A DNA stretch of 46,146 bases from contig JAJZET010000228.1 of the NCBI GenBank assembly GCA_021805685.1, positions 1 through 46,146 on the forward strand, read 5' to 3'. This stretch comes from Pseudomonadota bacterium. GTDB taxonomy: Bacteria > Pseudomonadota > Gammaproteobacteria > Xanthomonadales > Rhodanobacteraceae. Shown here in pieces: positions 39,388-43,567 of this stretch. The number at the start of each line of letters is the position of its first letter. The stretch's first letter is position 1. The translations under genes were made by a program, and so were the position numbers. Below the pieces are notes generated by a model that was not told where the DNA came from, made no database searches, and worked only from the letters and a program-made list of their open reading frames with translations.

Positions 39388-40326
39388 ATGACCCTGCGCC
39401 TAGTCCTGCTGATCCTGCTCCTGCTGTTCGTGCTTTGCGTGCTGCTGGTGCACCTGCGCGGGCGCGTACGGCTGCGCTTCGACCGCCAGCTGGTTGACCA
39501 CTCGGCCATCTTCGCGCCCTACAACCTGCTGATGTACGCGTTCTCGGCGGTGCCGGCGCGGCCCATCCTCGAGCGCCGCGGCTTCCCGCAGCTGGACCTG
39601 CTGCAGGCGAACTGGCAGACCATCCGCGAGGAGGCGCTGTCGCTGTTCGATGAAGGCCATATCCGTGCCGCGCAACGCAGCAACGACGCCAGCTTCAACA
39701 GCTTCTTCCGGCAGGGCTGGAAGCGCTTCTACCTGAAGTGGTACGGCGAACCGCTGGCCTCGGCCGAGGCGTTGTGCCCGAAGACGGTGGCCCTGCTGCA
39801 ATCCATTCCCAGCATCAAGGCGGCGATGTTTGCCACGCTGGCGCCGAACAGCAAGCTCAACCGGCACCGCGACCCGTTCGCCGGCTCGTTGCGCTACCAC
39901 CTGGGCCTGATCACGCCGAACTCGCGCGACTGCCGCATCTTCGTGGACGGCGAAGAGCATGCCTGGGGCGACGGCAAGGACGTGGTGTTCGACGAGACCT
40001 ACGTGCACTGGGTGGAAAACAAGACCGACCAGACCCGGGTGATCCTGTTCGCCGACGTGGAGCGCCCGCTGCGCACGCGCTGGATGAGTGCGATCAACCG
40101 GCGCGTGAGCGCCTTCATGGGCAGGATCACCGCCTCCCCGAACACCGAATCGCCGGAGGAGAAGACCGGTTTCGTCAACCGGCTGTTCGCGCTCAGCCAG
40201 CACAATCGCGAACGCAGTCGTGCCTTCAAGAGAAGGCACCCAAAGCTGTTCCGTAGCCTGAAATACTTGGGATTGCTGTTCCTGGCATGGCTGATCCTGT
40301 GCGCGCCGTGGCCGTTCGCACGCTGA
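39388..40326 (+). CDS. lpxO: LpxO-like aspartyl/asparaginyl beta-hydroxylase
   Basis: A protein of 312 residues with an N-terminal membrane helix (about residues 3-22) and a C-terminal hydrophobic segment (about 290-308). The iron-2-oxoglutarate site includes HRDPFAGSLRYHLGL (the H-x-D pair) and the distal His in ETYVHWVENKTDQTRVILFADVERP, followed by the Arg that binds oxoglutarate. LpxO hydroxylates the fatty acyl chain of lipid A. The membrane anchors and YNLLMYAFSAVP region fit this, but some homologues hydroxylate other substrates. Confidence 0.85.
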   Translation: MTLRLVLLILLLLFVLCVLLVHLRGRVRLRFDRQLVDHSAIFAPYNLLMYAFSAVPARPILERRGFPQLDLLQANWQTIREEALSLFDEGHIRAAQRSNDASFNSFFRQGWKRFYLKWYGEPLASAEALCPKTVALLQSIPSIKAAMFATLAPNSKLNRHRDPFAGSLRYHLGLITPNSRDCRIFVDGEEHAWGDGKDVVFDETYVHWVENKTDQTRVILFADVERPLRTRWMSAINRRVSAFMGRITASPNTESPEEKTGFVNRLFALSQHNRERSRAFKRRHPKLFRSLKYLGLLFLAWLILCAPWPFAR

Positions 40327-40328
40327 GG

Positions 40329-40361
40329 CGGTAACGTCGACGCCACCTCGCGCGTCCTTGC
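40329..40361 (+). promoter_or_regulatory. Candidate ECF41 sigma-factor promoter, in front of the sigma gene
   Basis: CGGTAACG (40329-40336), 16 bases, CGTCCTTGC (40353-40361). Exactly the same 17 fixed bases at the same spacing lie before the AhpD-like gene (41275-41307). A 16-base spacer and CGTC at -10 are what ECF41 factors are described to use. Confidence 0.75.
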
Positions 40362-40385
40362 TGCGATCCCTTCGAGGAAACCGCC

Positions 40386-41312
40386 ATGGACCCGCAAACC
40401 GCCCTGTTCCAGCAACACCGTCCGCGCCTCTTCGGGCTGGCCTACCGCATGCTCGGCACGCCCGCCGACGCCGAGGACGTGCTGCACGACGCCTGGCTGC
40501 GCTGGAACGCGCAGGACACCGCCGCGCTGGACGATCCCGAGGCCTGGCTGGTCACCGTGACCACGCGCCTCGCGCTGGATCGCCTGCGCCGCGCCAGAAC
40601 CGAGCGCGAGCACTACCCCGGCCCCTGGTTGCCTGAACCGCTGGTGGATGAAGCCGCGCCGGCCGACGGCAGCGGCGCCGAGACGCCCGAAGCCGCGCTG
40701 GAGCGCGGCCAGACCCTCACGCTGTCCTTCCTCACCCTGCTGGAGCGGCTGGGCCCGGACGAGCGCGCCGCCTTCCTGCTCAACGAAGTGTTCGACTACA
40801 GCCACGCCGAAACGGCGGCCATCCTCGGCATCACCGAGAACGCCTGCCGCCAGCGCGTGCACCGCGCCCGGGCGCGGCTGCGCGAGGATCGCCCACGCTT
40901 CAGCGTGGACGCGCGCGCCCAGCAGCGCCTGCTGCTGCGCTTCGTGGCCGCGATGGAGCAGCCCACGCTGGACTCGTTGCGCGCGCTGTTCGCCGAGGAC
41001 GCCATCCACATCTCGGACGGCGGCGGCGTGGTCGCCGCCACCCTGCATCCGCTGCACGGCGCCGAGCGGCTGGCGCGGCTGTACCTGCAGATCGCCCACA
41101 ACACCCGTCTGCAGCCGCTGCGCTACAGCCTGCTCACGCTCAACGGGGCGCCGGCCCTGCTGGCCTGGTCCGGCAGCACGCTGACCACCGCGATCTGGAT
41201 CGAAGGCGACGGCGACCGCATCTCCGCCATCCACGCGCTGCGCCATCCGGGGAAGCTGGCGCGGCTGGCGGCGACGGTAACGAATCCACAGGCCGGTGCG
41301 TCCTTGCACTGA
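40386..41312 (+). CDS. sigJ: ECF sigma factor, ECF41 (SigJ-like) group with SnoaL-like C-terminal domain
   Basis: A protein of 308 residues. Sigma region 2 is RLFGLAYRMLGTPADAEDVLHDAWLRW, and region 4 is LGPDERAAFLLNEVFDYSHAETAAILGITENACRQRVHRARARLR. In place of an anti-sigma partner there is a fused SnoaL/NTF2-like domain (about residues 175-300). The linker has GPWLPEPLVDE, matching the WLPEP motif of ECF41 factors, and DGGG and HPGKL are the C-terminal motifs in slightly altered form. The next gene is an AhpD-like oxidoreductase, the usual ECF41 partner. A GAGGA site precedes the ATG. It probably drives itself and that partner. Confidence 0.93.
   Translation: MDPQTALFQQHRPRLFGLAYRMLGTPADAEDVLHDAWLRWNAQDTAALDDPEAWLVTVTTRLALDRLRRARTEREHYPGPWLPEPLVDEAAPADGSGAETPEAALERGQTLTLSFLTLLERLGPDERAAFLLNEVFDYSHAETAAILGITENACRQRVHRARARLREDRPRFSVDARAQQRLLLRFVAAMEQPTLDSLRALFAEDAIHISDGGGVVAATLHPLHGAERLARLYLQIAHNTRLQPLRYSLLTLNGAPALLAWSGSTLTTAIWIEGDGDRISAIHALRHPGKLARLAATVTNPQAGASLH
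41275..41307 (+). promoter_or_regulatory. Candidate ECF41 sigma-factor promoter, in front of the AhpD-like gene
   Basis: CGGTAACG (41275-41282), 16 bases, CGTCCTTGC (41299-41307), lying in the last codons of the sigma-factor gene. It is identical in its fixed parts to 40329-40361. The ATG is 58 bases after CGTC. Confidence 0.75.
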
Positions 41313-41359
41313 ACGGCCCATTCCGGTCGTCATCCGCCCACCGACACAGGAGTTATCCC

Positions 41360-41818
41360 ATGACCCGCATTTCCGTCCAGCGCCACTACGCCGTCATGCA
41401 GCCGCTGATCAAGCTTGGCGAGGAGATCCGCCAACGCGGCCATCTCGACGCGAAACTGGCCGACCTGGTGCTGATGCGCTGCTCGCAGATCAACGGCTGC
41501 GCCTTCTGCCTCGACATGCACAGCAAGGACGCCCGCGCCGCCGGCGAAACCGAGCAGCGCCTGCACCTGCTGCCCGCCTGGCGCGAGACCAAGCTGTACA
41601 GCGAGGCCGAACAGGCCGCCCTGGCCTTCGCGGAGGAACTCACCGAGCTGCCCTCCCACGAGTCGGTGCCCGATGCGCTCTACGAGCGGGTGCGCCAGCA
41701 CTTCGACGACGCGGGGGTGATCGACCTGGTGCTGCTGATCGGCCTGATCAACACCTGGAACCGGCTCAACATCGCCGTGCGCACCGAGGGCGGACACTAC
41801 AAACCCGCCGCGCACTGA
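41360..41818 (+). CDS. AhpD-like / carboxymuconolactone decarboxylase-family oxidoreductase
   Basis: A protein of 152 residues of the AhpD family. The redox motif is CAFC in MRCSQINGCAFCLDMHSKDA, with the His three residues after the second Cys. ELPSHESVPDALYERVRQHFDDAGVIDLVLLI and INTWNRLNIAVR are typical of the proteins that accompany ECF41 sigma factors. An AGGAG site lies 8 bases before the ATG. The reaction is unknown; many members reduce peroxides or use Cys-Cys chemistry. A strong terminator follows at 41906. Confidence 0.9.
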   Translation: MTRISVQRHYAVMQPLIKLGEEIRQRGHLDAKLADLVLMRCSQINGCAFCLDMHSKDARAAGETEQRLHLLPAWRETKLYSEAEQAALAFAEELTELPSHESVPDALYERVRQHFDDAGVIDLVLLIGLINTWNRLNIAVRTEGGHYKPAAH

Positions 41819-41905
41819 ACACGCGGACGCCGCCCACGACAAGACAACAGGATTACCGTCCTGCACTCCAGCATGGCGCCGCAGGGTGGCACAGGGATGT
41901 GCCCC

Positions 41906-41939
41906 ATGAAAAAGCCGCGGTTTCCCGCGGCTTTTTCAT
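41906..41939. terminator. Bidirectional terminator between the AhpD-like and isocitrate dehydrogenase genes
   Basis: ATGAAAAAGCCGCGG (41906-41920), a 4-base loop, and its exact complement (41925-41939), with A- and T-runs flanking the GC stem. It can end both convergent transcripts. Confidence 0.92.
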
Positions 41940-41952
41940 CATGCCTAGCCGA

Positions 41953-42966
41953 TCAGGCCGCGACGCGCCTGGCGATCGCCGCACCGAAGCTCTCGGTGGA
42001 ACCCTTGCCGCCGAGGTCCGGCGTCACGCTGTCGCGGTCGTTCGCCATGGTGTCGCGGATCGCGGCGCGCAGCTTGTCGCCCTTGGCCACCATGCCGAGG
42101 TGGTCGAGCATGTCCGCCGCGGCCAGCAGCAGTGCGCAGGGGTTGGCGATGCCCTTGCCGGCGATGTCCGGCGCCGAGCCGTGCACAGCCTCGAAGATCG
42201 CCGCACCCTCGCCGATGTTGTCGCCTGGCGCCAGGCCCAGGCCGCCGACCAGGCCCGCGCACAGGTCGGAGAGGATGTCGCCGAACAGGTTGGTGGTGAC
42301 GATCACGTCGAACTGCTCGGGGCGCATCACCAGCTGCATGCAGGTGTTGTCCACGATCATCTCGTTGAACTCGATCTGCGGGTATTCCTTGGCAACTTCG
42401 CGCGCCACGTTCAAGAACAGGCCCGAAGCGGTCTTGATGATGTTGGCCTTGTGCACCGCCGTGACCTTCTTGCGGCCCTTCTTCACCGCCAGCTCGAAGG
42501 CGTAGCGCACGATGCGCTCGCTGCCCTTGCGGGTGTTGCGGATCATCGAGGTCGCCACTTCGCCGTCCTCCGACAGCGTCTGGCCCTCGGCCAGGTAGGC
42601 GCCCTCGGTGTTCTCTCGCACGGTGATGATGTCGATATTGTCGAAGCGCGCCTTGGTGCCCGGGAAGCTGATCGCCGGACGCACGTTGGCGTACAGGTCG
42701 AAGTGGCGGCGCAGGGTGACGTTGATCGAGGTGAAGCCGCCGCCGATCGGGGTGGTCAACGGGCCCTTCAGCGCCACCTTGTGCTCGGCGATCTTGTCCA
42801 GCGTGGCCTTGGGCAGCAGGTCGCCATGCTTCTCCAGCGCGACCATGCCGGCGTCCGCGAAATCGTAGGTAAGGCCGCAATCCAGCGCGTCGAGCACGCG
42901 CAGCGTGGCGGTCATGATCTCCGGGCCGATGCCGTCGCCCGGGATCACCGCGATGGTCTTGCTCAT
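41953..42966 (-). CDS. icd: Isocitrate dehydrogenase, NAD-type (short homodimeric form)
   Basis: A protein of 337 residues of the isocitrate/isopropylmalate dehydrogenase family. It begins TIAVIPGDGIGPEIM. IGGGFTSINVTLRRHFDLYANVRP (substrate-binding Ser and Arg), VRENTEGAYLAEGQ, NLFGDILSDLCAGLVGGLG and FEAVHGSAPDIAGKGIANP follow. The short length and the R-E-N-T-E-G region match the NAD-dependent enzymes of Xanthomonas rather than LeuB or the larger NADP enzyme. NAD preference is inferred. It starts at 42966 and acts in the TCA cycle. Confidence 0.92.
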   Translation of the reverse strand: MSKTIAVIPGDGIGPEIMTATLRVLDALDCGLTYDFADAGMVALEKHGDLLPKATLDKIAEHKVALKGPLTTPIGGGFTSINVTLRRHFDLYANVRPAISFPGTKARFDNIDIITVRENTEGAYLAEGQTLSEDGEVATSMIRNTRKGSERIVRYAFELAVKKGRKKVTAVHKANIIKTASGLFLNVAREVAKEYPQIEFNEMIVDNTCMQLVMRPEQFDVIVTTNLFGDILSDLCAGLVGGLGLAPGDNIGEGAAIFEAVHGSAPDIAGKGIANPCALLLAAADMLDHLGMVAKGDKLRAAIRDTMANDRDSVTPDLGGKGSTESFGAAIARRVAA

Positions 42967-43165: not shown

Positions 43166-43567
43166 TCAGCCGTGGTCGGCGCAGGCGGCGTCGGCCGTGG
43201 CCTCGCCCTCTTCCAGCTTGTCGAGGAAATCGACGGCGCGGCGCAGGTGCGGAATCACGATGGATCCGCCCACGACCAGGCCCACGCTGAACGTCTCGAA
43301 GAACTCTTCACGCGTGACGCCGGCGTCCTTGCACTGCGCCACGTGATAGCTGATGCAGTCGTCGCAGCGCAGCACCATCGAGGCGACCAGGCCCAGCAGC
43401 TCCTTGGTCTTCACGTCCAGCGCACCGGGCTTGTAGGTCTGCGTGTCCAGCGCGAAGAAGCGCCGCACCACCTGGTTGTCCTCGGCCAGGATGCGTTCGT
43501 TCATGCGCTGGCGGAACGCGGTGAACTCGGCCACGCGGTCCTTTTCGCCGCCCTGCCCGGCACTCAT
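43166..43567 (-). CDS. AhpD-like / carboxymuconolactone decarboxylase-family protein
   Basis: A protein of 133 residues. The redox motif is CDDC in VLRCDDCISYHVAQCKDAGV, followed by a His four residues on, the AhpD arrangement. LDVKTKELLGLVASMVLRCDDCISYHV is the core of the family. Its ATG overlaps the TGA of the glutaredoxin gene (ATGA), so the two are translationally coupled and may work as electron donor and acceptor. It has a different length and little resemblance outside the motif to the AhpD-like protein at 41360. Confidence 0.87.
   Translation of the reverse strand: MSAGQGGEKDRVAEFTAFRQRMNERILAEDNQVVRRFFALDTQTYKPGALDVKTKELLGLVASMVLRCDDCISYHVAQCKDAGVTREEFFETFSVGLVVGGSIVIPHLRRAVDFLDKLEEGEATADAACADHG

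Follow-up and report, generated by a model that had tools for sequence, protein, structure and literature searches.

The ECF41 locus and its two predicted promoters

The window (the whole stretch of 46,146 nucleotides that was analysed) comes from a bacterium of family Rhodanobacteraceae and carries a gene for an ECF41 / SigJ-type sigma factor, followed 47 nt downstream by a gene for a carboxymuconolactone decarboxylase (CMD) / AhpD-like protein. The other neighbours are an LpxO-like gene, whose profile score was under its cut-off, and an isocitrate/isopropylmalate dehydrogenase gene, which is convergent with the CMD gene. The features of the locus are as follows.

40330..40356, + strand: P1, predicted promoter of the sigma gene (-35 GGTAACG at 40330-40336, spacer of 16 nt, -10 CGTC at 40353-40356)
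40357..40361, + strand: CTTGC, extension of the -10 element of P1, from base counts in orthologues
40386..41312, + strand: ECF41 / SigJ-type sigma factor, 308 aa, from domain profiles, a PDB match, the linker motif and a structure model
41276..41302, + strand: P2, predicted promoter of the CMD gene inside the sigma frame (-35 GGTAACG at 41276-41282, spacer of 16 nt, -10 CGTC at 41299-41302)
41303..41307, + strand: CTTGC, extension of the -10 element of P2, from base counts in orthologues
41360..41818, + strand: CMD / AhpD-like protein, 152 aa, with CxxCxxxH, from profile matches
41909..41936, no strand assigned: perfect 12-bp inverted repeat AAAAAGCCGCGG-TTTC-CCGCGGCTTTTT between the CMD gene and the convergent dehydrogenase gene

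The original prediction had assigned the sigma factor to the ECF41 type and its partner to the AhpD-like proteins, and both assignments stood up. Sigma70_r2 and r4_2 of Pfam both matched the sigma protein, and its score against NF007214 (SigJ) was 278.6 bits, above the cut-off of 271, which it alone passed among the seven matches in the window's genome; the score against TIGR02957 (284.8 bits) was under the cut-off of 323. The best PDB sequence match was SigJ (5xe7). The protein is laid out as sigma2, a linker with WLPEP (invariant in all 17 aligned sigma proteins), sigma4, a SnoaL-like extension of about 140 aa past sigma4, and the tail VTNPQAGASLH, which is encoded by the P2 stretch. It also carries DGGG and HPGKL, the latter being the counterpart of NPDKL in the protein of locus L085, and we take DGGG and the NPDKL-type motif to be known ECF41 motifs. 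No Pfam match to SnoaL was found in the sigma protein at E 0.001. The predicted structure, a model of moderate confidence (mean pLDDT 67, pTM 0.46), matched SigJ 5xe7 (fold rank 2) and SnoaL-like/ketosteroid isomerase structures, with low whole-chain TM-scores (0.38-0.44), and on this model the C-terminal domain is predicted to be SnoaL-like. No anti-sigma gene adjoins the sigma gene.

The partner matched CMD/AhpD-like profiles and has the CxxCxxxH motif. Near the sigma locus, 43166-43567 (- strand) encodes another protein with a CMD domain, a short one of 133 aa. The inverted repeat, which has A and T runs, is likely to be a two-way terminator serving the CMD and isocitrate/isopropylmalate dehydrogenase genes; it was absent from the output of an automated terminator scan.

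The pattern CGGTAACG-N16-CGTCCTTGC was found exactly on the + strand at 40329-40361 and 41275-41307, with all 17 fixed bases identical, spacers of 16 nt each and different spacer sequences, just as originally described. The placement described earlier was also reproduced: site 1 starts 57 nt 5' of the sigma start codon, and site 2 starts 85 nt 5' of the CMD start and spans approximately sigma codons -13 to -2. From P1, transcription would start near 40362-40363, which would leave about 23 nt of leader. GTMACR-N16-CGTC had no further match in the window beyond P1 and P2, and a consensus scan of 40300-41960 gave no sigma70-like promoter.

The window's own genome (3.07 Mb in 294 contigs, 87% complete) contains four exact copies of GGTAACG-N16-CGTC, namely P1, P2 and those at C62:12452 and C244:115339. 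The site at C62:12452 lies 45 nt 5' of an ORF, and the sequence after its CGTC differs. The longer pattern GTAAC-N17-CGTCCTT was exact at the two window sites only; up to one mismatch gave six sites, against 15 for the reversed control. The genome scan proposed earlier, GGTAACG-N16-CGTC with up to one mismatch, was uninformative, since it returned 86 sites and its reversed control 140; frequency at random positions, which had been offered as a sign against the motif, would wrongly count against it at this stringency.

Conservation of the promoter pair and the site within the sigma gene

The pair was followed through a sample of 197 genomes of the GTDB family. When near-full-length sigma matches with at least 65% identity were taken as orthologues (the partial match in G174 was excluded), 83 of the 197 genomes contained 84 such matches, and 80 of these 84 loci were scored for GTMACR-N16-CGTC. 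The motif was present 5' of the sigma gene in 79 and at or after the end of the sigma gene in 77 of the 80 loci. The spacer was 16 nt in every motif (79/79 and 77/77), in agreement with the CGTC and 16-nt spacing given originally, and in 72 of the 77 loci the downstream motif stood at exactly -36 relative to the sigma stop. The other four loci (L148 and L086-L088) have both motifs too. The upstream motif was missing in L060, and the downstream motif was missing in L115, in L141, which has an in-frame stop, and in L147. The last belongs to a genome with two ECF41 copies (G005:C8) and is the second of them, 67% identical, and a CMD-type ORF with its own ECF41-type motif (L093) lies about 8 kb from it.

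GGTAACG, which had been put forward as the -35 element of the lineage, did not hold as such: GTCAC dominates at both the sigma sites (70/79) and the downstream sites (68/77), GTAAC accounts for nine of each, and the two forms are mixed within single loci (L040, L041, L045 and L047). After CGTC, the sigma sites have C in 76 and then T in 68 of 79, and the downstream sites have C (76), T (77), T (73), G (72) and C (53) of 77. Two bases 5' of GT, C is found at 77 of 79 sigma sites and 76 of 77 downstream sites. By these base counts, the C two bases before GT and the CT after CGTC are conserved additions to the published consensus.

Named relatives with the locus belong to Rhodanobacter, Fulvimonas, Frateuria and Dyella. 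The comparison with related Rhodanobacteraceae that had been suggested covered 18 loci, and both motifs were present in all 15 full-length loci of close relatives (L068-L082; 14 are titled Rhodanobacteraceae and L080 only 'Proteobacteria'). No motif was found in the remaining three, which are L083 (49% identity), L084 (decayed) and L085 (Arthrobacter, 38%). Nine distant ECF41-like matches (44-51% identity, L151-L159) had the upstream motif in five cases and the downstream motif in three. The mean number of matches to GTMACG-N16-CGTCCTKG was 1.88 in the 83 genomes with the orthologue versus 0.49 in the 114 without it, the reversed control giving 0.37 and 0.25, respectively. Within the window's genus, CNGTMACR-N16-CGTCC had 41 sites in 15 genomes, fewer than the 132 of the reversed control; by hand, the 41 sites were sorted into 11 sigma promoters (one being the scar in G127 described below), 10 CMD sites, six small-gene sites and 14 singletons. 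Further recurring sites among the matches listed, such as GTCACGCGCAGCTCCAGCACGGCGTCCTTG in G005, G031, G046, G161 and G185, are present also in genomes without the sigma gene and were rejected as candidates; they look like conserved coding DNA.

The second site lies within a reading frame, and one may ask whether it is a promoter at all. It might be kept merely through a conserved C-terminal peptide, VT..P...SLH, and locus L077 does retain ASLH though the motif is gone from that place. We regard this explanation as very improbable, since codon choice at site 2 is fixed beyond residue identity. In a codon test with 79 sigma genes and 125 scored positions, the six largest excesses of synonymous conservation (codons -4, -5, -11, -12, -3 and -10) were all inside the motif, where Ser is encoded by TCC in 74 of 74 cases and Leu by TTG in 68 of 73, versus 7.8% of Leu codons elsewhere. 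The motif also occurs outside coding DNA. Among the loci whose flanks were read (L038-L067 and L086-L089), five genomes have a second, tandem CMD gene, and in four of them (L086, L087, L088 and L089), which had first been spotted through their extra motif, a separate copy of the motif lies about 76 nt upstream of this gene, in non-coding DNA; the second CMD gene of G094 (L059) has none. In L089 (G087:C250), the first tandem CMD copy is apparently frame-shifted and the second is whole. In L077, other DNA lies between the sigma end and the motif, which stays about 80 nt 5' of the CMD start, and in L054, too, the motif is displaced yet still 5' of the partner gene. The protein of L085, a more distant ECF41, stops a few residues past NPDKL and has no such tail. 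The codon constraint, the non-coding copies and L077 together indicate that a DNA element, not the peptide alone, is under selection, and we read the sigma tail VTxPxxGASLH as largely a translated promoter. The in-frame promoter would be a clean example of one DNA stretch under two constraints.

A chance repeat can be considered in the same way. With up to three mismatches, the full pattern matched the window at two places, both of them the known sites, and 100 shuffles of the window gave 0.18 matches on average, with two or more in 4 of 100. Since the shuffle test alone is only moderately strong, the case is settled by conservation: both window matches are exact, and retention of the sites across the 80 loci refutes a chance repeat, which we consider practically negligible. 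From the conservation and the codon constraint, the two sites very probably act as promoters for the ECF41 sigma gene and its CMD/AhpD-like partner, as originally proposed.

A third, unlinked site ahead of a small gene

The original two-site picture was supported for the pair and missed a third, conserved site that is not linked to the locus.

C244:115366-115338 of the window's genome, - strand: P3, predicted promoter of a small gene, from the motif match and conservation

An 87-aa ORF lies 51 nt 3' of this site (C244:115339 in the exact scan), and in another genus two sites (L090 and L091) precede homologous ORFs of 81 aa. Homologues of the small protein (80-87 aa) were found in 102 of the 197 family genomes; outside the family, the sampled order gave 11 weak matches, with E of 1e-9 or higher. 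The protein had nothing above the cut-off in Pfam or NCBIfam (DUF7709 appeared at E 0.022), and a PDB search with it gave no credible relative.

We examined 90 small-gene loci in 88 genomes, leaving out 14 genomes (nine with weak matches, three of genus g11, and G013 and G049, the source of the lead) and counting the window's own genome, which was part of the lead. The motif was present within 250 nt 5' of the aligned small-gene start in 57 of 66 genomes with a sigma orthologue versus 3 of 22 without one (Fisher p 8e-10, relatedness ignored), and these counts are not independent because 15 of the 22 sigma-free genomes come from one genus. By genus, the sigma-bearing genomes had the motif in 6/8 (g1), 10/13 (g19), 6/6 (g6), 11/12 (g14), 13/15 (g18), 6/6 (g20), 2/2 (g3), 1/1 (g8), 0/1 (g10), 1/1 (g21) and 1/1 (g22), and the sigma-free genomes in 2/2 (g1), 0/2 (g19), 0/1 (g14), 1/15 (g11), 0/1 (g12) and 0/1 (g13). 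Controls gave 0 of 90 loci on the opposite strand, 0 of 90 for the reversed sequence and 23 of 18000 for base-shuffled sequence. Nine of the 66 sigma-bearing genomes lacked the motif at the scored small-gene copy; one of them, G009, has it on the other copy. At ten loci with two small-gene copies, the motif is on one only, which is the better-matching copy in nine and the other in G009.

Several genomes depart from the general pattern. G127 (one contig, 100% complete) has no sigma gene and has kept the small-gene motif; behind its LpxO gene (L291), an intact P1-type motif, GTCACG-N16-CGTCCTTG, is followed by a fusion in which about 30 sigma codons run into the final 23 codons of the CMD gene, the scar of a deletion that is probably recent. 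G147 (92% complete), in which no sigma orthologue was found, has also kept the small-gene motif; its LpxO gene is followed by other DNA and then by a CMD gene (73%) that has no motif. The small-gene motif of G147 may be a relic, a sign of a missed sigma gene or the site of another sigma factor. G137 has CMD homologues, with no motif near the one examined. In G133, the small-gene site is at -170, a single case among the 15 examined g11 genomes, and is probably due to chance. G174 (L084 / L286), a metagenome assembly close to the window, has a sigma pseudogene and no match at either local promoter, and its CMD frame is 95% identical.

It could be that P1 and P2 are ECF41 promoters and that the small-gene site is read by a co-occurring other ECF sigma factor or by another regulator. 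The small-gene motif without a sigma orthologue in G127 and G147 would fit this, as would genus g11, in which the small gene and the efflux operon are present and the motif is missing in 14 of the 15 examined genomes. However, the small-gene site has the same half-sites and the same 16-nt spacer as P1 and P2, and GTAAC, which is rare elsewhere, is the form at all eight motif-bearing small genes of the window's genus, where it is common at P1 and P2. The scar in G127, with its intact promoter, means that the small-gene motif there can be a relic, and the sigma-free genomes of g14 and g19 have the motif in 0 of 3. We consider a separate regulator of the small gene improbable and prefer the reading in which the ECF41 sigma factor serves all three sites, which suggests that this sigma factor controls more than previously thought.

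In the window's genome (L280), profile scans place a MarR gene after the small gene and, further on, EmrA-like and EmrB-like genes, with a TTGACA...TAGAAT-like stretch, seen by eye, between the small gene and marR. The sister locus L282 showed the order MarR-NodT-EmrA, MarR there by homology and NodT by profile, and L287 had OEP and HlyD matches; TIGR00711 (EmrB) and TIGR01845 (NodT) were over their cut-offs, and the EmrA models were under theirs. A small-gene copy lies directly 5' of marR in all eight neighbourhoods (L280, L282-L285 and L287-L289). Genomes without the ECF41 orthologue or the motif also encode a protein of about 80 aa immediately 5' of marR. In G082 (L285), the copy adjoining marR has no motif; between marR and the copy that does carry it lie a second small gene and, on the opposite strand, an AraC-type gene, so the link with the pump is weakened. 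That the three-promoter Rhodanobacteraceae regulon ties the AhpD-like enzyme to a small protein modulating, or co-expressed with, a MarR/NodT/EmrAB pump is a tentative proposal that we would hold at somewhat less than even chances; on it, the ECF41 sigma factor would be more than a switch for one gene.

A proposed three-target regulon and known ECF41 systems

We think it highly probable that P1, P2 and the unlinked P3 are all read by RNA polymerase with the ECF41 sigma factor, and that its regulon has three conserved targets. This reading draws on sequence comparison: conservation, the codon constraint, the joint occurrence of sigma gene and third site, and the loss of the motifs beside the broken sigma gene of G174. 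The active sigma factor would transcribe its own gene from P1, giving positive autoregulation; P2, in the last dozen sigma codons, would drive the CMD/AhpD-like gene; and P3, 5' of the gene for the 87-aa protein ahead of the MarR/EmrA/EmrB-type efflux operon, would be read by the same sigma factor, possibly with some read-through from the small gene into the operon. By analogy with the studied ECF41 systems, the sigma activity is expected to be under the control of the fused SnoaL-like domain, and the signal it responds to might be oxidative damage or some small molecule.

The ECF41 systems of Bacillus licheniformis (ydfG) and Rhodobacter sphaeroides (RSP_0606) were characterized by Wecke et al. 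2012 (PMC3426412), and the statements that follow apply to the portions of the cited papers drawn on here. In those two systems, 5'RACE and reporter data gave TGTCACA-N16 with CGTC or TGTT, and the measured leaders of 22 and 23 nt resemble that of about 23 nt predicted for P1 (PMC3426412). The systems described there share with ours the WLPEP linker, given as an ECF41 feature, the long C-terminal extension, the lack of an obvious anti-sigma factor, a CMD partner with CxxC, the -10 CGTC, a spacer of 16 +/- 1 nt, and a promoter before the COE gene and/or the sigma gene. They differ in the -35 element, which is TGTCACA there and NGTMACG/A here; GGTAACG of the window departs from TGTCACA at three of seven positions, whereas CGTC and the spacing are exact and the family majority has GTCAC. 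The gene order here, ECF then COE, is a minority in that work (53 of 373; among the 53, the sigma gene had a promoter in 14 and the COE gene in 24; Table 4, PMC3426412), and here the COE promoter has a fixed place within the sigma reading frame. The portions drawn on report the COE gene as the sole target, together with the sigma gene if the two are cotranscribed (PMC3426412, PMC6180224), in contrast to the third, unlinked motif found here; this restriction was observed in B. licheniformis, R. sphaeroides and S. meliloti and is not part of what defines the group. RpoE9 of Sinorhizobium meliloti, also ECF41, has a CMD gene as its target and -35/-10 elements matching ECF41, as here, and differs in that the CMD gene is upstream and is the single target reported (PMC6180224). 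We also drew on parts of PMC8999054 and PMC11837500, and no report of this third target was found in the ECF41 and Rhodanobacter ECF sigma literature, as judged by titles and the openings of abstracts. SigJ of Mycobacterium tuberculosis (ECF41; PDB 5xe7) has the same domain architecture as the window's sigma factor. RpoE10 of Azospirillum brasilense, another ECF41 sigma factor, reportedly affects motility and lateral flagella, in work attributed to Dubey et al. 2020. As far as that partial account goes, it is alike in having effects wider than one COE gene and differs in that these concern motility and lateral flagella.

Seen beside these systems, P1 and P2 are by their sequences a known kind of promoter pair, and what is new relative to the portions drawn on is the conserved, predicted third target. 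For this widespread sigma group, one target was known in the three systems considered. P3 offers an independent reporter for ECF41, and the small protein represents a family without an assignment above the cut-off in Pfam or NCBIfam. The conserved site beside a multidrug-efflux-type operon hints at a role for ECF41 in dealing with toxic organic compounds or peroxides, and if the tie to the pump is true, one signal sensed by the SnoaL-like domain would trigger detoxification together with efflux.
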